From a gamma proteobacterium SCGC AAA076-P13 (GTDB taxonomy: Bacteria; Pseudomonadota; Gammaproteobacteria; Magnimaribacterales; D2472), in contig ARRA01000002.1 in NCBI GenBank assembly GCA_000384935.1, positions 1 through 64,000 on the forward strand: a stretch of 64,000 bases of DNA, written 5' to 3'. Numbering within the stretch: the stretch's first letter is position 1; the number at the start of each line of letters is the position of its first letter. The position numbers and the translations under genes are program-made. This document shows, one piece after another, positions 34,884-51,351 of this stretch. The notes below the pieces were generated by a model. It was not told where the DNA came from. It did no database searches and was given only the letters and a program-made list of their open reading frames with translations.

Positions 34884-36275
34884 ATGATTGTATTTTTATT
34901 AATTCTTTGTTCAATAATATCAGTTATAAGTGCTTTTGTTGATGTTGAGCTTGTTAAACTCCTTACCGAAATAGTTTCATTAGGAGCTACCCCAGGGAAT
35001 GAATCCCAGACTATTAGATATTTAATCCTGTTAGCTTTTGGTGTACTAATTATTAAGTTACTTAATATCATATTAATTGTTCTAACAGCTAGAAGATTAT
35101 CAGTTCATTATGTTTCTTTAGCTGTTGAAAATATAATATCTTCAGCAAGCCCAATAGAGAAAATTGAATTTTCTGGAATAATGGAAAATTCAAACCACAT
35201 TCAAACTTTTGTTGTGTCTATGCTTCAATTTATCAGCTCAAGTGTAACAGTATTAATTATAATTTATCTAACTTTGGATTTTATCGATATAAAAATTCCA
35301 TCAATTATTTATATTGCTATAGCAGCTTACATATTATTTAATCTTTTAGTACGAAAATTACAAAGCTTGCTTGGGGATAGGCTAGCTGAATTAGCAAATA
35401 AAAGATTTAAGCCTTTTGCAGATGTAGTCAACGGATCATATGGCATTAAAATTTCAAAATTGAATCTTTTTTATAAATCTTTCATTAAAGGAATTGAAGG
35501 TAAATTAAGACTAACTCAAGGGAGTATATTTATCCTTGCAACCTCTCCTAAATTATTCTTAGATTTACTTATTGTATTAATAATAGCAGTTATTGTAAGT
35601 CTTGGAAATGATACTCAGATTTTAGCTGCATTGGCTTTTGTTGCTCTGAGGGTTATACCTTTAATAACAGCAGCTTTTCTAGCTCTTGCAAAAATTTCAG
35701 CATACTGGACTCCAGTAATGAAAGTTTTTGAATTCTCAAAAAATACTTCAAATTCATTAGCCAATGAAAGTGGTATTTTGTTAAAGAATAATATAATTGT
35801 TATAGGCCCATCAGGATCGGGAAAATCAACGTTATTAAAAAATATTCTAGAGAATAAATTAACAGAAAATGCGCGAATACTAGATTCAATAGATAAAACA
35901 AATAAGATGATTTCTAATGGAATTTTCATGCAAAGATCATATGATTTATCGATAACCTTAAAAAAATTTAAAGAACGAGCCTCATTCAATATAAATATAT
36001 TTGATAAATTTTTATTGAATAAAATTGATGATTCAATCTTATTGAAAAGCCTTAGCGGGGGAGAGCTTCAAAGATTATGGCTATCTGTAGCTATTAGAGA
36101 TGAATTTACACAATACTTTCTTGATGAACCAACAAATAATCTAGATATTAACAGTAAAAAAATATTTTTAAGCTGGATGAGCGGTACTACAAAAAAAATA
36201 TTTATAGTCACCCATGATAATGAAGTTATAGATATTTGTAAAAAACTCAACTATAAAATTATAGATTTAAGTTAA
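34884..36275 (+). CDS. Compact ABC exporter (fused membrane and ATPase domains)
   Basis: A 463-residue half-transporter, shorter than the usual ~580. About six hydrophobic segments cover residues 1-285. The ATPase follows with Walker A GPSGSGKSTLL near residue 311, a Q-loop glutamine in FMQRSYD, the signature LSGGELQRL near 390, Walker B YFLDEPTNNLD and the switch histidine in IVTHDNE. The nucleotide domain is only about 165 residues but has every catalytic motif. No Wzx flippase is seen in the island, so it may flip lipid-linked repeats as PglK or MsbA-like proteins do. It starts two bases after the glycosyltransferase. Confidence 0.85.
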   Translation: MIVFLLILCSIISVISAFVDVELVKLLTEIVSLGATPGNESQTIRYLILLAFGVLIIKLLNIILIVLTARRLSVHYVSLAVENIISSASPIEKIEFSGIMENSNHIQTFVVSMLQFISSSVTVLIIIYLTLDFIDIKIPSIIYIAIAAYILFNLLVRKLQSLLGDRLAELANKRFKPFADVVNGSYGIKISKLNLFYKSFIKGIEGKLRLTQGSIFILATSPKLFLDLLIVLIIAVIVSLGNDTQILAALAFVALRVIPLITAAFLALAKISAYWTPVMKVFEFSKNTSNSLANESGILLKNNIIVIGPSGSGKSTLLKNILENKLTENARILDSIDKTNKMISNGIFMQRSYDLSITLKKFKERASFNINIFDKFLLNKIDDSILLKSLSGGELQRLWLSVAIRDEFTQYFLDEPTNNLDINSKKIFLSWMSGTTKKIFIVTHDNEVIDICKKLNYKIIDLS

Positions 36276-37016
36276 ATGCAAATATCAATAGTTATACCGA
36301 CTCTAGAGAGACCTCACTTACAAAGAACAGTTAATAGCGCTCTTGAAAGCCCTTATGTTGCTGAAATAATAATTATTGGAAATAGCATTAAAATTGATGT
36401 TATTGATAATAAAAGAGTTAGGTATTTTCATATTAATGAGAAAAATGCAAATTCTAAACGTAACTTCGGTATCCGGAAATGTAATTTTAGTTATATTTTA
36501 TGCTTAGATGATGATGATTTGCTTTGTCTAAATTCTAAAATTATTGGGAAGGCTGAAAAAGCTTTTCAGCATAGATCCTGCGTTGGTTTTGCTATGAGCG
36601 CAGATGTATATGTAAATAACAAACTCGTAAGAAATATTGATAAGGGAGAAAAATTCTTTTATCTAAATGATTTTCGTTTCACCAACCCAATTGGAACTAC
36701 CTCCTCTGTTCTTTTAAGCAGAGACATAATAAAAAATGATGAATATTTCCATCAAGATATTGGATGCAGACAAGATTACTTTTGTTGGATAAAAGTACTG
36801 TTAATAAATAATGGTTCATGCTTCAAAGCAACCTCAAATGTTGGAATAATTTATAATGATGATAACGCACATGATAGAACTTCAAAATCAGGTCTACTTT
36901 TTAAACTATTTCAAGTTGTAAAGATTTTTAAAAAAACTTTTGCATTAAATAAATTATTTGCTATTTTTTCAACTTTTTCTCATTTAAGATATTTAATCGC
37001 AAGCTTAAAAAAATGA
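36276..37016 (+). CDS. Family 2 glycosyltransferase
   Basis: A 246-residue GT2-like protein. ISIVIPTLERPHLQRTVNSA opens the fold and SKRNFGI is the usual helix after the donor strand. The metal site is ILCLDDDDLL near residue 85, with an unusually acidic DDDD. GCRQDYFCWIKVL matches the base region. It begins at the base after the ABC gene's stop and overlaps the next gene by four bases. Confidence 0.85.
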   Translation: MQISIVIPTLERPHLQRTVNSALESPYVAEIIIIGNSIKIDVIDNKRVRYFHINEKNANSKRNFGIRKCNFSYILCLDDDDLLCLNSKIIGKAEKAFQHRSCVGFAMSADVYVNNKLVRNIDKGEKFFYLNDFRFTNPIGTTSSVLLSRDIIKNDEYFHQDIGCRQDYFCWIKVLLINNGSCFKATSNVGIIYNDDNAHDRTSKSGLLFKLFQVVKIFKKTFALNKLFAIFSTFSHLRYLIASLKK

Positions 37017-37783
37017 AATTTTCTATTTGTATCACAACATATGATAAACAGGATAAAGTTAACAATTTAATTGATAGCTTTCAAAATAGTGCTAATAAAT
37101 TAAACATTACTTTAAGATTTTATATTTCAGTTTCTAATATTACTATTGATATAAATCCGCGAACTGATGTTAAAATTTTTAAACTTCCAAAAGACTATTT
37201 TTGGGCAAGGTCTTTTAAATTTTTGTTAAAAAAAATAGATGAAGATTCTGAAAAAATCATACATATCAATGATGATACCAATATCTCCAATGAAGAGGTT
37301 GAAAAATTTCTTAATTTAAGTGTCTTGTCAGATGTTCTCGTTGCAAATTTTTATGATACTAAAAAAGACCATATTTTTGGGTTCAAGCGCTTTGATGGAA
37401 GAAGTTTTAGACCTTCATCTATCTGCAAAGCAGAATTTTTTAATGGCAACTTATTTATGTCTAATACAGATTTATTAATAGACTCTATCCCTTTTTACAC
37501 ATATAAGCATGGTTTCTTAGATTATCATCTATCTTTTAAAATCATAAAGGCTCTTAATGAAAGAAAACTAAAAATGGAAGAATTAAATATAAATCATAAT
37601 GTTGAGACTAATCTAGAAAGAAAAATGCTGCATAAGACCATCAGAGATCCAATGAATTCCAGAATGAACCCTTTTGACCAAATGATTTTTTATATATCCA
37701 TTGGAAGACCGTTTTTTGGTTGTATTAGTTTCTTCTTAAATGCCTTTAGAGCAATTAATTTTTATACTAGGGGGATAAAATGA
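37013..37783 (+). CDS. Probable GT2-like glycosyltransferase
   Basis: A 256-residue protein with GT-A character. KFSICITTYDKQDKVNNLI is the first strand and helix, KLPKDYFWARSFKFLL is the acceptor-side helix, and IIHINDDTNIS is a DxD-like motif near residue 83. FFNGNLFMSNTDLL followed by HGFLDYHLSF resembles the C-terminal GT2 signature. The fit is weaker than for the neighbours, and the sugar is unknown. It overlaps both neighbours by four bases. Confidence 0.7.
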   Translation: MKFSICITTYDKQDKVNNLIDSFQNSANKLNITLRFYISVSNITIDINPRTDVKIFKLPKDYFWARSFKFLLKKIDEDSEKIIHINDDTNISNEEVEKFLNLSVLSDVLVANFYDTKKDHIFGFKRFDGRSFRPSSICKAEFFNGNLFMSNTDLLIDSIPFYTYKHGFLDYHLSFKIIKALNERKLKMEELNINHNVETNLERKMLHKTIRDPMNSRMNPFDQMIFYISIGRPFFGCISFFLNAFRAINFYTRGIK

Positions 37784-38982
37784 ATAAACGAATTTTAATA
37801 TGCGCAGCTACTTTTTCACAACTCATACCAGTTTATGATCATATGCTAAAAAAAAAATATAGCGTTGATTATATTTTAGCCTCCCAAAGTGGAGCTAAAG
37901 ATACCCAAGCCAATTCATTACTAATAAAAATGCTCAGAGCTGTAGAGTTTGGATTTTTAAGTAACTCATTATTTTCAATGTATCATGTTGGATTTATTCA
38001 GAATCATTCAAAAAACTATTTTTTCAATACATTACTTAAGAGCCTTAGTTATACGTCAAGGAAATCACGCCCATCAGGAAAATTAATAAAAAGACTATTA
38101 TCGAGAATATTAAAATTTCAATTAAATTATTTTAAAACTAAAAATATTAGCTCTTATGATGAAATTATATTTACAGGTATTTTAACAACTAAAACTGAAT
38201 TAGCTTTGTTTTTAAACGCTGATAATAAAAATATTACGACAACTTACTGGCCTGCAAACTGGGATAATGCTTCATCAAAATGTATAAATCCTCTCGGATC
38301 ATTTACTAAATCATATTATTGGACTGAGGAAATGAAAGCTTTGATGGAAATAGTTCCCTACTATAAGATATTAATTCCTGGCGCCTTTCCAAGGCTAAGA
38401 TATCTTCAAAAGGTAAGCCATGTGGCTGATGAAGTTAGTCTTAGAATTCTCGTAGCCTTATCTCAGAAGAGCCTCGACTCTTCAAATAAAATTATATCAA
38501 ATCTGAATTCTCAAATAGAAAAATGCGGTATAAAAAATGTTCAAATAACTATTAGACCTCATCCAGCATCTAAGATACCAGATATTAATAACTCAAAACT
38601 TAATCATATTAAGTTATCAACTGGCGACTTAATTGGAATTAACAAATCAAGCAATTTAACTGATGCAAAAAATAAAATGAAAATATATGAAGATGAAATA
38701 GTTAAAGTTTTATCTCATGCTGATATATTAATTTGTGAAGGTGGCACTCTAATACTTGAAGCAATTAATATAGGCATCCCTTCAATAATCTTGAGTATAA
38801 ATCCGTATAATCCAACTGCTGCTCATTTTAATAACTTTGATCATTTTAAATTACTATCATCTGAAGAAAGTGTAAAAGCTGTTTTCAGCTTTCATAGACT
38901 AATTGAAAATTGTCAAAAACTTAAACAAAATAAAAATCAACCAATCTCAGAAGATTTAAAGCTCATAATTGATCAAAACTGA
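37780..38982 (+). CDS. Putative GT-B glycosyltransferase
   Basis: A 400-residue protein with two Rossmann-like halves. Notable segments are TTYWPANWDNASSKC near residue 150, ILVALSQKSL near 225, ITIRPHPASKIP near 262, and LICEGGTLILEAINIGIPSI near 325. The last is typical of UDP-sugar-binding GT-B folds. The N-terminal half is basic and may touch the membrane. It lies between a GT2 gene and the polymerase, so it is likely to add a sugar to the repeat unit. No named family could be assigned. Confidence 0.62.
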   Translation: MNKRILICAATFSQLIPVYDHMLKKKYSVDYILASQSGAKDTQANSLLIKMLRAVEFGFLSNSLFSMYHVGFIQNHSKNYFFNTLLKSLSYTSRKSRPSGKLIKRLLSRILKFQLNYFKTKNISSYDEIIFTGILTTKTELALFLNADNKNITTTYWPANWDNASSKCINPLGSFTKSYYWTEEMKALMEIVPYYKILIPGAFPRLRYLQKVSHVADEVSLRILVALSQKSLDSSNKIISNLNSQIEKCGIKNVQITIRPHPASKIPDINNSKLNHIKLSTGDLIGINKSSNLTDAKNKMKIYEDEIVKVLSHADILICEGGTLILEAINIGIPSIILSINPYNPTAAHFNNFDHFKLLSSEESVKAVFSFHRLIENCQKLKQNKNQPISEDLKLIIDQN

Positions 38983-39950
38983 TGACTTATCTTTTTATTA
39001 TTTTAATTTTTGCAATTGTTTTAAATAATCTATTATGTCTATCTTTTCGTAAAGAATTAGCATTCATTTCTTTTTTACCAATTCCTTTTATTACTATTTT
39101 TTTTTTTAATGCTGGATCTCCAGATATTGAAGTTTATAAATTTTTTTTTTCAGAAACTTGTAAAGGTAGCTTTGTAACTGATCCTGGAATGAGCTTAATT
39201 TTTATACCATTTTGTGGTTTTGGAGAGGAAATTGGTATTAAACTAATAATATTTATTGTTTCTATCCTTGGATATCTTGCATTTTCAAAAATTGATAATA
39301 CTTTTGGTCCAGTAATTTATTTAGCATTTGGAAATTTTTTTATTGGAAATTTTAATGCGTTATCTTTTAATTTTTTACTTTATATATTAATAATTGCACT
39401 TCTTAATTCTAATAAGTTAAAAAATTCCTTACTTATAATTTCAGGAACAGCTTTTCATACTGCAGGAACATTTTTTTTACTATCAAATTTTTTAAGCAGG
39501 ATTAGTCTGCTAATAACAACTCCAATAGCAATATTAATAACAATTCTAAGTTACTCATTTCTTATTAATTTCACTCCATTTGATGATAGATTTTTTAAGT
39601 TAAATGGGGATGGAAGTATATCCAACTTAATTTATTTTTTAATTATTACTATATTATTTTGTATTTTTGGGCATAAAAAATATGACAAAAAGCTTCTTAA
39701 TTCTATTGTTCTTGCTAATGTTATATATGCTGGATTAGCAATTAATATTATTTTTTTACAAATAAATGCATTAAGATTTTTAAATATTTCATTCGCATTT
39801 TTATTAATTTCTTTAATAAGTCTTTTTTCAAAAAATAGTTTTACAAGAACCTTAATTTTTATGGGAATTTTAATCCTATCTATTGCAAATTTTATTTTTA
39901 ACAGCTCTATCTTCCCATTACATGAATGGATATTGTTCGAAATAGTATAA
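38982..39950 (+). CDS. EpsG/Wzy-like polysaccharide polymerase
   Basis: A very hydrophobic 322-residue protein with about nine or ten membrane segments and little else. A soluble loop near residue 45-65 has the EpsG-like SPDIEVYKFFF...DPGMSLIF pattern. A later FHTAGTFFLL matches the H-x-T-A motif after a membrane segment in EpsG-family polymerases. It shares one base with the preceding stop (tgATG). The position at the end of a glycosyltransferase run fits a Wzy-type polymerase that works with Wzz. It could be another polytopic envelope protein. Confidence 0.65.
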   Translation: MTYLFIILIFAIVLNNLLCLSFRKELAFISFLPIPFITIFFFNAGSPDIEVYKFFFSETCKGSFVTDPGMSLIFIPFCGFGEEIGIKLIIFIVSILGYLAFSKIDNTFGPVIYLAFGNFFIGNFNALSFNFLLYILIIALLNSNKLKNSLLIISGTAFHTAGTFFLLSNFLSRISLLITTPIAILITILSYSFLINFTPFDDRFFKLNGDGSISNLIYFLIITILFCIFGHKKYDKKLLNSIVLANVIYAGLAINIIFLQINALRFLNISFAFLLISLISLFSKNSFTRTLIFMGILILSIANFIFNSSIFPLHEWILFEIV

Positions 39951-40193
39951 GTTATGATTGATAAAAGAATACATTTTTTAATTATGCTTTAAGTTAAAAC
40001 TCATTATTTTTCTAATTTTCATAGTTATTTTGATAATTCACACATAAAAATGTTGTCAAACTCATACTATTTCTTTAAAAAAAAATATTTTTAGCTTAAC
40101 TCCATCTTGTGAAATAGTTTAAAAAAAATACCAAGTATTGTTTATGCGCAGCTTTAGAACTAGAATATACTTTTTTTTAACCTATAAATTTAA
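39951..40193. other. AT-rich intergenic region with no gene seen
   Basis: This 243-nt gap is the longest gene-free stretch in the island. All frames contain stops and no tRNA-like fold is seen. Runs of A and T (for example near 40075-40095) could act as a terminator for the polymerase gene and a promoter for the methyltransferase gene, but no clear boxes can be named. Confidence 0.6.
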
Positions 40194-46732: not shown

Positions 46733-47004
46733 GCATCACTAAAAAAAATATCATAAAAAATATAAATAAGGAAACTGCAATATCAATTGAGGATGCGTCT
46801 ATCTTAGTGGAATCATTTCTAATGTTAGTTAAGAAACATGCAAAATTAAATAAAGTTAAATTGAGTGGCTTTGGTACCTTCTGTTTTAAAAAAACACCTA
46901 AACGTATTGGAAGGAACCCTAAAACCTCTGATTCATATATAATACCAATTCTAAATAAACTAAATTTTAAACCCTCTAATATATTAAAGGATAAGATAAA
47001 TTAA
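46729..47004 (+). CDS. ihfA: Integration host factor subunit alpha
   Basis: A 91-residue HU/IHF-family protein. VKLSGFGTFCFKK and RIGRNPKTSD are the IHF-alpha hallmarks (KLSGFGNF and PGRNPKTG in E. coli). The place directly after pheT identifies it as the alpha subunit. It overlaps pheT by four bases and its stop shares one base with the start of the export gene, so the capsule export genes may be co-transcribed with this block. Confidence 0.94.
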   Translation: MSITKKNIIKNINKETAISIEDASILVESFLMLVKKHAKLNKVKLSGFGTFCFKKTPKRIGRNPKTSDSYIIPILNKLNFKPSNILKDKIN

Positions 47005-48755
47005 TGAATAAATTCCTTGTTACAACATTATTAATTACTTCAGCTGCTATTTTCTCTCAAGAGCTAGATGAGTCGTATTTGAAAAGTCTTCCTGATAATA
47101 TACGAGAGGATGTTCTTTTAAAAATAGATCAACGCGATGAGGATGAAAAACCTATTTACAGAAGGCAGTCCTCTATGATAGATAAGCCCTTTTCAGAAGA
47201 AGAAATGGAAGCTAGGAAGAAAAGAAATAGATTTGGAGATAATATCTTCGATACAATGCAGTCTTCATTTATGCCTATAAATGAGCCAAATTTAGATAGT
47301 TCTTATGTTCTAGATTTTGGTGATACTCTTGAATTACAGTTGATTGGACAAAAAAACTCTATCGATAACCTTTCTGTAAAAAGAGATGGTTCAATTAATA
47401 TTCCAGAAATAGGAAAGTTATTTGTATCTGGCCTTCCACTTGATGATGTAAATAAACTAATCAAAGCAAAGATCAGTGCTGCTTTTATAGGAGTGGAGGC
47501 TTTTATAACCTTGGTTAATATAAGGGATATACAAGTTCTTGTTACTGGTAATGCATACAACCCTGGCATATACACACTTAACGGTAACTCAAATATTTTG
47601 AATGCCTTGAGTATGGCAGGTGGAGTAGATATAAATGGTAGCTTCAGAAAAATCGATCTAATTAGAAATAATGAAGTTATAAAATCAGTCGACTTATACG
47701 ATATTTTTATATATGGAAAATCGGGTTTTGGAGAAAGATTAAGATCTGGAGATTCTATAATAGTAAGGCCGTCAATGAAAATGGTAACTATTTCTGGTGC
47801 TGTTAAAAGGCCTGCTTTGTATGAATTAACTGAGGATAATAACTTTTCTGACTTAATAGATTATGGTGATGGGTTCGCAGATAATGCTAATTTAGAAACT
47901 TTAAGAATAGAAAGACCTTTAAAAGATGATACCTCCTTCATTGATATATTAGATCTAGATGAACTTTCTAACATTGACGTCAGGTCCAGCGACAGGCTCA
48001 ATGTTAGGGCCTTTGATAGAAGAACTGTAACAATTTCCGGTGCTATCAATACTCCAGGAGTATATACAATTTCAAAAGGTGAAACATTGTCATCATTGAT
48101 TAGTAAAGCTCAAGGTTACAAAGATAACGCATATCCTTTTGGCGGAATACTTATCAACGAAACAGCTTTAGCACTAAATGTGGTTGCTGCAGAAAAACTT
48201 TATAAGTCGTTTGTTCAAAGGTTGGTTACAAAAGGTGATGCTCTTTTTGCATCCGAATCCTTACCTTTTATTTTAGATGAGCTCAAAAAAACTGAAATAT
48301 CTGGAAGGGTGATGGCTGAGTTTGATCTTGATGTGATTGAAGCTAACAAGGATTTAGATACAACCCTTGATAATAATGACCAAATAATAATACCCATTAA
48401 AAGCGAACAGGTTTATATATTTGGAGAAGTAAATCAGCCTGGAGCTATAAGATACAAGCCTTCCAAAAGTGTTACAGATTATATTGCAGGTGCCGGAGGT
48501 GCCATAGAAAGCTCAGACGTTGATAATACATTTGTTATTCATCCTAATGGCGAGGTAAATAGAATAAGCAATGTCAGTAGGTTGTCTATCTTAAATAATC
48601 GAAACAATGAGATTTTAATATATCCTGGATCCGTTATTTATATCCCTCGAGAAGTTAAATCAAGAGATGCCTCAATGACTGCATCAATATGGGCTCCAAT
48701 TGTGAGCTCTGCAGCTACTAGTATAACTGCACTAAGCGTTTTAAATAGCAATTAA
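47004..48755 (+). CDS. Polysaccharide export protein with SLBB domains (Wza/GfcE-like)
   Basis: A 583-residue outer-membrane export protein. A signal peptide covers residues 1-18 (FLVTTLLITSAAIFSQ); there is no lipobox cysteine, unlike E. coli Wza. A poly-export domain (VLDFGDTLELQLIGQ, VKRDGSINIPEIGKL) lies at ~108-190. It is followed by about four SLBB repeats, recognisable by TGNAYNPGIYTL, SGAVKRPALYEL, SGAINTPGVYTI and FGEVNQPGAIRY. A C-terminal hydrophobic helix (SIWAPIVSSAATSITAL) resembles the membrane helix of Wza. The YjbH-like gene starts just after it. Confidence 0.9.
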   Translation: MNKFLVTTLLITSAAIFSQELDESYLKSLPDNIREDVLLKIDQRDEDEKPIYRRQSSMIDKPFSEEEMEARKKRNRFGDNIFDTMQSSFMPINEPNLDSSYVLDFGDTLELQLIGQKNSIDNLSVKRDGSINIPEIGKLFVSGLPLDDVNKLIKAKISAAFIGVEAFITLVNIRDIQVLVTGNAYNPGIYTLNGNSNILNALSMAGGVDINGSFRKIDLIRNNEVIKSVDLYDIFIYGKSGFGERLRSGDSIIVRPSMKMVTISGAVKRPALYELTEDNNFSDLIDYGDGFADNANLETLRIERPLKDDTSFIDILDLDELSNIDVRSSDRLNVRAFDRRTVTISGAINTPGVYTISKGETLSSLISKAQGYKDNAYPFGGILINETALALNVVAAEKLYKSFVQRLVTKGDALFASESLPFILDELKKTEISGRVMAEFDLDVIEANKDLDTTLDNNDQIIIPIKSEQVYIFGEVNQPGAIRYKPSKSVTDYIAGAGGAIESSDVDNTFVIHPNGEVNRISNVSRLSILNNRNNEILIYPGSVIYIPREVKSRDASMTASIWAPIVSSAATSITALSVLNSN

Positions 48756-48758
48756 ATC

Positions 48759-50869
48759 ATGAGGTTTTTTTTTCATTAATTTTTACTATTTCAGTAAGCG
48801 CTAATTATTATGAAGATTCTAATATCTCATATAACTCATTTGGCCAGGTAGGATTAATACAAACGCCAACAGCAGATTCCAAACAAGAGGGATCTATTTC
48901 TCTTACTATCAATAAAAATGATATTTGGAAATTTGGTACTCTATCCGTATCACCATTTAATTGGCTTGAAGCAAGTTATTTTTATTATAGGCCTTCAGAT
49001 TTAAGATGGGAGGGTAATAATGTTGCTGGGCATTATCTAGATAAAGGGTTCAATGTAAAATTTAAATATAAATCAAAAAATAATAATAGGCCTAATTTGG
49101 CTATTGGTTTTGATGATTTTGCAGGAACTGGTTATTTCACAAGAGAATATATCGCAGCAACTCAAAACTTGGGAGATATAAGGGTTACTGCTGGCCTGGG
49201 ATGGGGTAAATACGCAGGAGATAATAGCTTTGATAACCCACTTTCTTTCTTATCAGATAAATTAAATGTAAGACCTAGCACTTCAAGCAACTTTAGTCTT
49301 GGGGGAACCCCATCTTATGATAAATGGTTTCGAGGCAATTCAGCATTATTTGGCGGTTTAGAATATTTTGTACCTAATCGAAATGGATTAAGTATTAAAT
49401 TAGAATATGACCCATTTAATTATTTGGATTTTTCTGCTAAAAATAGAGGTGATGCCTCATTTGATCTAAGAAAAAAAGACTCCAATATTAATTTAGGCCT
49501 TAGTTACCCATTCAATAAATTTTTAACTGTTGATGCATCTTTTATTAAAGGCAATACTTTTAATTTAAGCTTTACCATCGGCACCACCTTTAATGATCAA
49601 CTAAGTAAGAAACAGAAATTTAATCCATCTCTTGATATTAAAGAAAGTAAAGAACATTCAAAAATAGAATTTTATGAAAGCATACTTCTCAATTTAAATA
49701 ATAATAATTTATTTTTACAAACAGCTTCTCTTAAAGAAAATGAATTAGATGTTTCCATTTCAACTTCTCAACATAGAAATGCCATCAGATCATCATCTTA
49801 TGCAGCATCAATTGTTCAAAAGGTTGCTGAAAAGCATGAAATAGATATCAATCAAATTAATATTAGTCATATAAACGCTGGCATTGAGTTAAATAATATT
49901 AAATATATAGCCAATCATATTAATAATGATAATTTGCCTATTGAATTATTAGTAAGGAATACTGCTCTTGAATCAGGGGATCCAACGGGGTTCGAGAAAG
50001 ATGAATTTAAACCAAATATTGATTTTCCTGTGATTTTCTCATCCATAAGTCCTACTTTAGTAACACACATTGGAAATCCTGAAAAATTCTTTTTTGGAGG
50101 CGTTAATTTACAACATATAAGCGAAATTCAATTTAGTAGAAATTTATTATTGAGTACTGAGTTTAATACCAGAGTTTATGATGATTTTGAAAATACTATT
50201 TCTGGACCAGGTTCTGTTATGGAGCATGTCAGAACAGATTTAGTTGAGTACCTTAAAGAAGATGACATGGTTATATCAAGAATGCAATTAGACTACGTTT
50301 GGTCTCTAAGAAAAGATACTTATGCAAAATTAAGCGGTGGAATTTATGAAACTATGTTTGCTGGATATGGAATAGAGACCTTATATAAACCATTTGATAA
50401 AAATTATAGTTTAGGGTTTGAAATATTTTATGTAAAACAAAGATCATTTGACCAACGCTTTTCATTTAAAGATTACAGCACTGTAACTGGACACCTTAAC
50501 TTTGGGTATAGCCTTCCGCTTGGTATTGAATCTAATATAAGCTATGGAAGATATTTAGCAAAAGATGATGGTTTTACCTTTGATTTAGGTAGAAGAACAA
50601 GAGCGGGGTTTAAGGCTGGAATTTATTTCACAAGAACTAATGTATCAGCTGAAACTTTTGGAGAAGGAAGTTTTGATAAAGGGTTTTATTTTCAAGTACC
50701 TATGGACTTATTATCAGGTAGTTACAATGGTAATTACTCAACTTTTAAAATATCGCCATTAACAAGAGATGGTGGTGCAAAATTAATACATGATAAAGAT
50801 TTAAAAGGTCTTATATATAACTCAACTTATAATGAGTTAAGTCAACAATGGAGAGGGCTCCTTAACTAA
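48759..50869 (+). CDS. YjbH/GfcD-like outer membrane protein, frame broken at a T9 run near the start
   Basis: A large beta-barrel protein of the YjbH family used in exopolysaccharide or group 4 capsule secretion. The main frame is open from before 48770 to 50869 but its first usual start is TTG at 49097, too late. Upstream in that frame it encodes a signal-peptide-like FFFSLIFTISVSA and then NSFGQVGLIQTPTAD...EGSISLTINKND, the conserved YjbH N-terminus. ATG at 48759, three bases after the previous stop, is out of frame by one base because of a T9 run (48765-48773). One extra T, or a -1 slip, gives about 703 residues, the family's usual length. Confidence 0.85.
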
Positions 50870-50888: not shown

Positions 50889-50916
50889 AAAAATAGCGGG
50901 TTAACCCGCTATTTTT
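50889..50916. terminator. Strong bidirectional rho-independent terminator
   Basis: A perfect 28-nt palindrome: AAAAATAGCGGG at 50889-50900, loop TTAA, and CCCGCTATTTTT at 50905-50916, with T-rich sequence to 50923 on the plus side and A-rich sequence on the other. It sits between the converging yjbH-like and gfcA-like genes and can end both transcripts. It is the clearest terminator in the window. Confidence 0.9.
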
Positions 50917-50928
50917 ATTTTTTACTTA

Positions 50929-51351
50929 TTAAGTTCCAGTTGAAGTACTTGTTGAAGTACTTGTTGAAGTACTTGTACTTGTTGAGGTACTTGTAGTGGT
51001 ACTTGTACTAGTTGAAGTACTTGGTGCAGTTGTTGGAGTTGTTGTTGTACTTGTACTTGGTGCAGTCGTTGGTGCAGTCGTTGGTGCAGTCGTTGGTGCA
51101 GTCGTTGGTGCAGTCGTTGGTGCAGGGCTACTGCTACCTCCAGAATCTAGCAATGCTGCTGCTGCTGCAACAGCCGCAGCTATCGCTCCTGGGCTGAGTG
51201 ATGTATCCTCTTCAACACTTTCTTCAGATTTAGCATCTGCCTCATCATTTGATACGTCTTGAGCAATTATTTGTGTTGAAAACATACCAGCAAAGAAACT
51301 GAATACTGTTCCCCATAAAACTCTAAACTTTGATTTTAATAATTTTGCCAT
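50929..51351 (-). CDS. GfcA/YjbE-like secreted Thr-Ser-rich repeat protein
   Basis: A 140-residue protein. It has a basic start, a hydrophobic signal segment (~12-30, ending STQIIAQ), an acidic stretch (SNDEADAKSEESVEED), a small-residue hydrophobic segment (GAIAAAVAAAAALLDSGG), then PTTA repeats and a tail of alternating Ser-Thr ending STGT. E. coli YjbE and GfcA have the same plan: signal peptide, Ala/Val-rich segment and a Thr-rich tail. Those genes stand beside YjbH/GfcD, as here, although this one is on the opposite strand. A good AAGGTGGAG ribosome site precedes the ATG. Its molecular role is unknown. Confidence 0.75.
   Translation of the reverse strand: MAKLLKSKFRVLWGTVFSFFAGMFSTQIIAQDVSNDEADAKSEESVEEDTSLSPGAIAAAVAAAAALLDSGGSSSPAPTTAPTTAPTTAPTTAPTTAPSTSTTTTPTTAPSTSTSTSTTTSTSTSTSTSTSTSTSTSTGT
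51059..51118. repeat. Five perfect 12-nt tandem repeats (GGTGCAGTCGTT)
   Basis: Five identical 12-nt units encode the TTAP repeats of the gfcA-like protein on the minus strand. Less regular GTACTT/GTTGAA-type repeats that encode the Ser-Thr tail extend from about 50935 to 51058. Because the unit is a multiple of three, changes in copy number keep the frame and would only alter protein length. Confidence 0.95.

Follow-up and report, generated by a model that had tools for sequence, protein, structure and literature searches.

Slippage-dependent genes include dnaX, and frameshifts in the homopolymers of endosymbionts were reportedly described by Wernegreen in 2010. The closest arrangements, as described in the available text of the sources, are those of mxiE and spa13 in Shigella, in which a homopolymer run stands between two frames and an added base is required for the longer product (PMC1088944, PMC5009743). 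The yjbH-like gene analysed here resembles them in that a run (of U in mxiE) separates two frames. It differs in that the run occupies codons 3–5, within the signal peptide, in that the unslipped peptide has six residues in seven of eight species, and in that the state is common to three genera of a free-living marine clade. In tssM of Citrobacter, slippage at an A11 run is needed for the full product and the ratio of the two forms is important (available text of PMC4256274). As an envelope gene of a secretion system with slippage for its full product, tssM offers a second likeness; however, its A11 run lies late, before the C-terminal domain, and yields two functional proteins, whereas the T9 or T10 run of yjbH lies at the 5′ end and would apparently yield one. 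Frameshifts in homopolymers of Buchnera and Blochmannia, according to the portion of PMC5009743 available, are corrected by slippage in 12–50% of transcripts. Long runs in AT-rich, reduced genomes are common to these cases and to yjbH, but the endosymbionts are host-bound and their runs are poly(A) tracts in genes for the cell wall and histidine, whereas the present run is poly(T) in an export porin gene of ocean plankton.

YjbH/GfcD proteins are outer-membrane polysaccharide porins, in which, in the excerpts of PMC9603273 and PMC8592465, the PF06082 domain covers nearly the full length and the gene lies beside an outer-membrane polysaccharide export (OPX) gene, as it does here. Among the matches listed in the open-licence literature, no report was found of recoding in the YjbH/GfcD family, or of slippage in SAR86 or in yjbH, and a word search of the available text of the GeneTack paper (PMC3711429) returned neither yjbH nor polysaccharide. 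Within the open-licence literature searched, what appears to be new is the family of the gene, the clade concerned, the location of the run within the signal peptide and the sharing among three genera.

The yjbH-like gene and its start

The window, a stretch of 64,000 nucleotides, is part of the genome of a SAR86 member, a clade of ocean bacteria; the source genome (G000) comprises 1.31 Mb in 39 contigs and is 87% complete. The preliminary description had reported an ATG at 48759 that follows the export gene by three bases, a run of nine T, a frame closing after six residues and a long frame of about 703 residues at −1, and all of these are present in the sequence (Table 1). The protein read from the long frame has 698 residues (P0001), or 703 if MRFFF is counted, and entry by a slip would give the N-terminus MRFFFSLIFTISVSA. 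As had also been proposed, no usual start precedes TTG 49097, which is the first ATG, GTG or TTG in this frame and corresponds to residue 109 of P0001. A start there would remove the signal peptide together with about 90 residues (19–108) of the Pfam match.

Table 1. Features at the yjbH-like locus, in window coordinates
Feature	Position	Strand	Basis
Wza-like polysaccharide export (OPX) gene	47004..48755	+	ORF; Poly_export, SLBB and GfcC-like domains
0-frame mini-ORF, ATG AGG TTT TTT TTT CAT TAA (MRFFFH-stop)	48759..48779	+	sequence reading
Putative slip tract, T9	48765..48773	+	nine T invariant in 8/8 species
yjbH-like long frame, −1 relative to ATG 48759, 698 codons	48773..50869	+	PF06082, 2.2e-148
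Intrinsic-terminator-like hairpin after yjbH	50889..50916	+	consensus match alone; region total 4 vs. 2.5 expected

The assignment to the YjbH/GfcD family is supported by a PF06082 score of 496.4 bits against a cut-off of 24, with positions 1–652 of the 658-position profile aligned to residues 19–677 of P0001. Moreover, the gene adjoins an OPX gene carrying Poly_export and SLBB domains, in which PF02563, PF10531, PF22461 and PF06251 scored above the cut-off and PF20616 slightly under it. Just past the terminator-like hairpin, an ORF of 140 residues on the minus strand (50929–51351) has a Thr/Ser/Pro-rich repeat tail and lacks a Pfam match; a Gly/Thr-repeat ORF was also observed near a yjbH paralogue in G001.

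Conservation of the start among relatives

Homologues were searched in 107 genomes of the family, of which 71 gave a match, and the gene starts were read in the best 30 loci and in nine contig loci. Among the loci read, the window and its seven closest homologues (identity 52–87%) share ATGAGR followed by T9 or T10, and in each of them the long frame lies at −1. The out-of-frame T-run gene therefore occurs in eight species and three genera. The preliminary description had suggested counting T in related genomes, and the count gave T9 in three species (G000, G016 and G013) and T10 in five (G004, G070, G080, G085 and G086), the long frame always being at −1. ATGAG is invariant in all eight. The product of the 0 frame is MRFFFH or MRFFFY, each followed by a stop, in seven species, and a frame of 20 codons is found in G086. 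By identical sequence, the records correspond to AK_MB155 (G016), AG-325-C22 (G004), AG-325-J11 (G080), AG-337-P19 (G085) and FRAM18_bin313 (G013), all labelled MAG; we take the AG- names to denote single-cell genomes. The long frame of about 700 codons is intact in seven of the eight species. The exception, G013 (L026, 3001–5093), contains about four additional frame changes, and A/T runs of at least seven occur there only at the start, so that this copy is either a decayed gene or the product of a noisy assembly; because of these breaks it was counted for the start region alone.

The frame transition is kept across these species and is absent in the next homologues. In G089 (48%), a TTG is in frame and the longest T run is eight. 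Homologues starting near 49097, which the preliminary description had named as evidence against its reading, were looked for and not found; G007 (45%) and G090 (42%), just beyond the T-run group, begin at an in-frame ATG with an N-terminus that by eye resembles a signal peptide. In addition, of the 203 genomes available for the order, eight contain a 19-base pattern across the site, ATGAGRTTTTTTTTTYAYT, once each and always at yjbH, and the reversed control gave no match. The frame of the Wza-like gene relative to the ATG varies (0, −1 or −2), indicating that the relation kept is that of ATG to yjbH only. For the same reason, a Wza–YjbH fusion by slippage was ruled out.

At identical Gly, Ala, Val, Thr and Pro codons, third bases differ by 0.57–0.68 in 19 of 21 pairs (G013 left out), whereas the values for the two closest pairs are 0.32 and 0.38. 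With a saturation expectation of about 0.66, the synonymous sites of yjbH are thus near saturation in those 19 pairs. In the codon alignment of seven taxa past the run, none of 2155 nine-base windows is invariant, and 10% of the third positions are, whereas all nine T of the run stay unchanged in the eight species. Phe is common to all seven taxa in 26 columns and is TTT throughout in nine of them, so that three constant TTT Phe codons are unusual but not extreme alone. The difference between T9 followed by C and T10 is a C/T substitution and the total length is the same in all, indicating that the phase was never altered. In the protein tree (seven rows, G013 left out), the T-run rows are explained by one change. 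The support of the T-run group was 66/39 with G086, in 61% of bootstrap trees, and 99/99 for the other six; the inclusion of G086 thus leaves weak support for a single origin. If phases were independent, one shared phase in eight would have a chance of about 5e-4 and the lack of an ON phase in eight a chance of about 0.04, both figures being weakened by kinship. The best reading of these comparisons is that the out-of-frame state is old and probably under selection.

A yjbH paralogue of about 650 residues served as a further comparison. Of the 34 matches that were near full length at 54% or above, 30 loci were read, and 29 of them have an in-frame ATG, GTG or TTG start, which rules out an out-of-frame start as a general property of yjbH. 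The remaining paralogue (L082 in G001, also L017, 1459–1498) begins with ATG and A13, is out of frame and has no usual start nearby; as the only such case in 30, it has three possible readings, namely an error, a slip site and a phase switch. Within each of the SAR86 genera g1 and g9, some members have the T-run yjbH and others the distant paralogue, a mixture that suggests exchange of polysaccharide loci.

Run lengths and motif frequency

Run lengths in 108 genomes were surveyed by Baranov et al. for the onset of selection, which in the available text lies at nine in many of them (PMC1088944). In our analysis, the expectation was obtained from synonymous-codon shuffles of 262 mechanically chosen ORFs in the 284 kb of the window's own contig. 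Coding A/T runs of at least eight numbered 94, against 98.1 expected, and those of at least nine numbered 9, against 29.1 (sd 3.9). When split by strand sense, T runs of at least nine numbered 4 against 10.9 and A runs 5 against 18.3. In G070 (240 kb), the corresponding numbers were 4 against 10.0 (sd 2.3) for T and 18 against 27.2 (sd 3.7) for A. Coding runs of at least nine are thus avoided, with the same direction and a weaker effect for A in G070. Both genomes contain more runs of exactly eight A than expected (63 vs. 44.7 in the own contig and 116 vs. 77.6 in G070), suggesting that the depletion is not gradual. The frame transition of yjbH coincides with a run of at least nine in all eight species, and its length fits a slippage threshold and equals the onset of depletion in the genome itself. 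As the available text of PMC1088944 cautions, such depletion may stem from replication slippage as much as from transcriptional slippage. Despite the overall depletion in coding sequence, three long runs in the window (A10 at 37848, T11 at 39097 and T10 at 39141) lie inside the ORFs 37780–38982 and 38982–39950; the stretch 36001–40000 that contains them is low in GC (26%).

The motif of an ATG followed by a T run is by itself no rarer than chance, and its weight rests on conservation. ATGNNNT9 with at most one mismatch occurs 8 times in the window, against 8.3 expected. Across the 107 genomes of the family, ATGARRT9 has 26 sites and the reversed pattern 14 (18 vs. 14 with the yjbH sites removed), indicating that apart from its setting the motif is near chance. 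A short 0 frame together with a long −1 frame beginning there was found at 8 of the 26 sites, all of them yjbH; a ninth (L077) lies within an ORF open from 46 codons upstream, and ordinary in-frame ATGARRT9 gene starts exist at L060, L064 and L081. Furthermore, under the scan criteria, the T9 run of yjbH is the only A/T run of at least eight in the 284 kb contig that coincides with a frame transition. The scan of G070 returned four other candidates besides yjbH, all at runs of eight, which are provisionally read as shadows or ordinary starts. The 25-base form of the site had no match in IMG/VR.

Routes into the long frame

We consider it probable, at roughly two chances in three, that YjbH is made by a programmed frame correction, most likely slippage of RNA polymerase, that acts as a throttle on expression of the export porin. 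Translation would begin at ATG 48759, probably by coupling with the Wza-like gene, whose end lies 1–8 nt upstream. An unslipped U9 mRNA would give the peptide MRFFFH alone. A slip of RNA polymerase on T9 or T10 would produce some mRNAs that gain one U or lose two, and these would encode MRFFF(S/L)LIF..., with the full signal peptide and an outer-membrane export barrel of the YjbH/GfcD type of about 700 residues. Selection would prevent the tract from falling below nine and would preserve its out-of-frame phase, and YjbH output would be a fraction of that of its operon partner. The out-of-frame arrangement, its conserved run and the depletion of coding runs of at least nine are observed, whereas the transcriptional nature of the slip, its yield and the throttle role are inferred. 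A slip by RNA polymerase, or at −1 by the ribosome, had been proposed in the preliminary description along with phase variation; the slip gains from the out-of-frame state in eight species and from the depletion, in the coding sequence of this genome, of runs of at least nine but not of at least eight; the phase variation is not supported. Transcription is favoured because the run is conserved at nine T although seven would be enough, because the length lies at the depletion threshold, and because a conserved stimulator of ribosomal frameshifting is lacking. In the available text of PMC5574713, insertions at A/T runs in E. coli and Buchnera rise exponentially with length and are mostly of single bases; no transcription error restoring a frame was detected there, which counts against a high slippage yield in those bacteria.

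Programmed −1 ribosomal frameshifting on U UUU UUU, which would give the same protein from an unaltered mRNA, is the main rival and is possible, although not probable. The heptamer (48767–48773 in the window) stands in the correct register in all eight species and conforms to X XXY YYZ, and the 0-frame stop lies within two codons past the run in seven of them, G086 having its 20-codon frame. The downstream folds beat nearly all shuffles in G080 (z −2.6) and G086 (z −2.7) but are ordinary in the other six (z −1.2 to 1.5), and pseudoknot-free folding gave no conserved downstream structure. A search for conserved RNA structure gave six weak pairs only, across the start and the run, with zero compensatory changes. 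No Shine–Dalgarno-like motif was found at −22 to −4 in any of the eight species. In addition, seven T would suffice for a ribosomal slip, which would leave two of the nine invariant T, those at the 5′ side, unused.

A non-canonical start in the long frame at the AUU or GUU that overlaps AGR-T would make a slip unnecessary. AUU is a rare but known start, as in E. coli infC, and the in-frame codon is ATT in six of the eight species. However, in the window and in G016 the codon reads GTT, and such a start would leave the invariant ATG and the nine T unexplained and deprive the signal peptide of its Arg; we therefore regard it as improbable.

Phase variation, in which the length of the DNA tract would toggle YjbH on and off, had been put forward in the preliminary description. 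Poly(A) or poly(T) tracts at the 5′ end of a gene are typical contingency substrates (available text of PMC2831843), but all eight species are in one and the same OFF phase and none is ON, the phase did not vary between species, and T9 and T10 differ by substitution instead of indel, which makes a contingency locus highly improbable. An assembly or sequencing error, which had been named as the plain alternative, or a decayed gene is very unlikely indeed, the remotest of these readings: homopolymers are error-prone and the G013 copy has additional frame breaks, but one phase is shared by eight separate assemblies, G070 being a single contig, and frames of about 700 codons are intact in seven of eight.

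A role of the T run as an intrinsic terminator or attenuator was rejected, as a convincing upstream stem is lacking in all eight species (folds of 0 to −4.0 kcal/mol) and the terminator scan found none there.

To return to slippage by RNA polymerase, the unslipped product would be too short to function, and the site therefore looks like a throttle that would keep YjbH scarce compared with its operon partner. The UTP level may influence slippage at a U run, and it is conceivable, although doubtful, that the run acts as a UTP sensor, with YjbH output tracking the UTP/UDP-sugar pool and export capacity being matched to polymer supply. pyrBI and codBA are subject to UTP-sensitive reiterative transcription (available text of PMC1088944), and such a sensor would be its counterpart in the elongation phase, inside a signal peptide. 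If the slip holds, gene callers would probably truncate or miss this porin, because the one usual start codon close by lies in another frame. Weak support for a throttle on YjbH may also come from the start candidates of other loci. Candidates were only GTG or TTG in 7 of 22 other YjbH-type loci (L005, L035–L055), against 2 of 30 paralogue loci, in a tally of printed candidates that includes some close kin.
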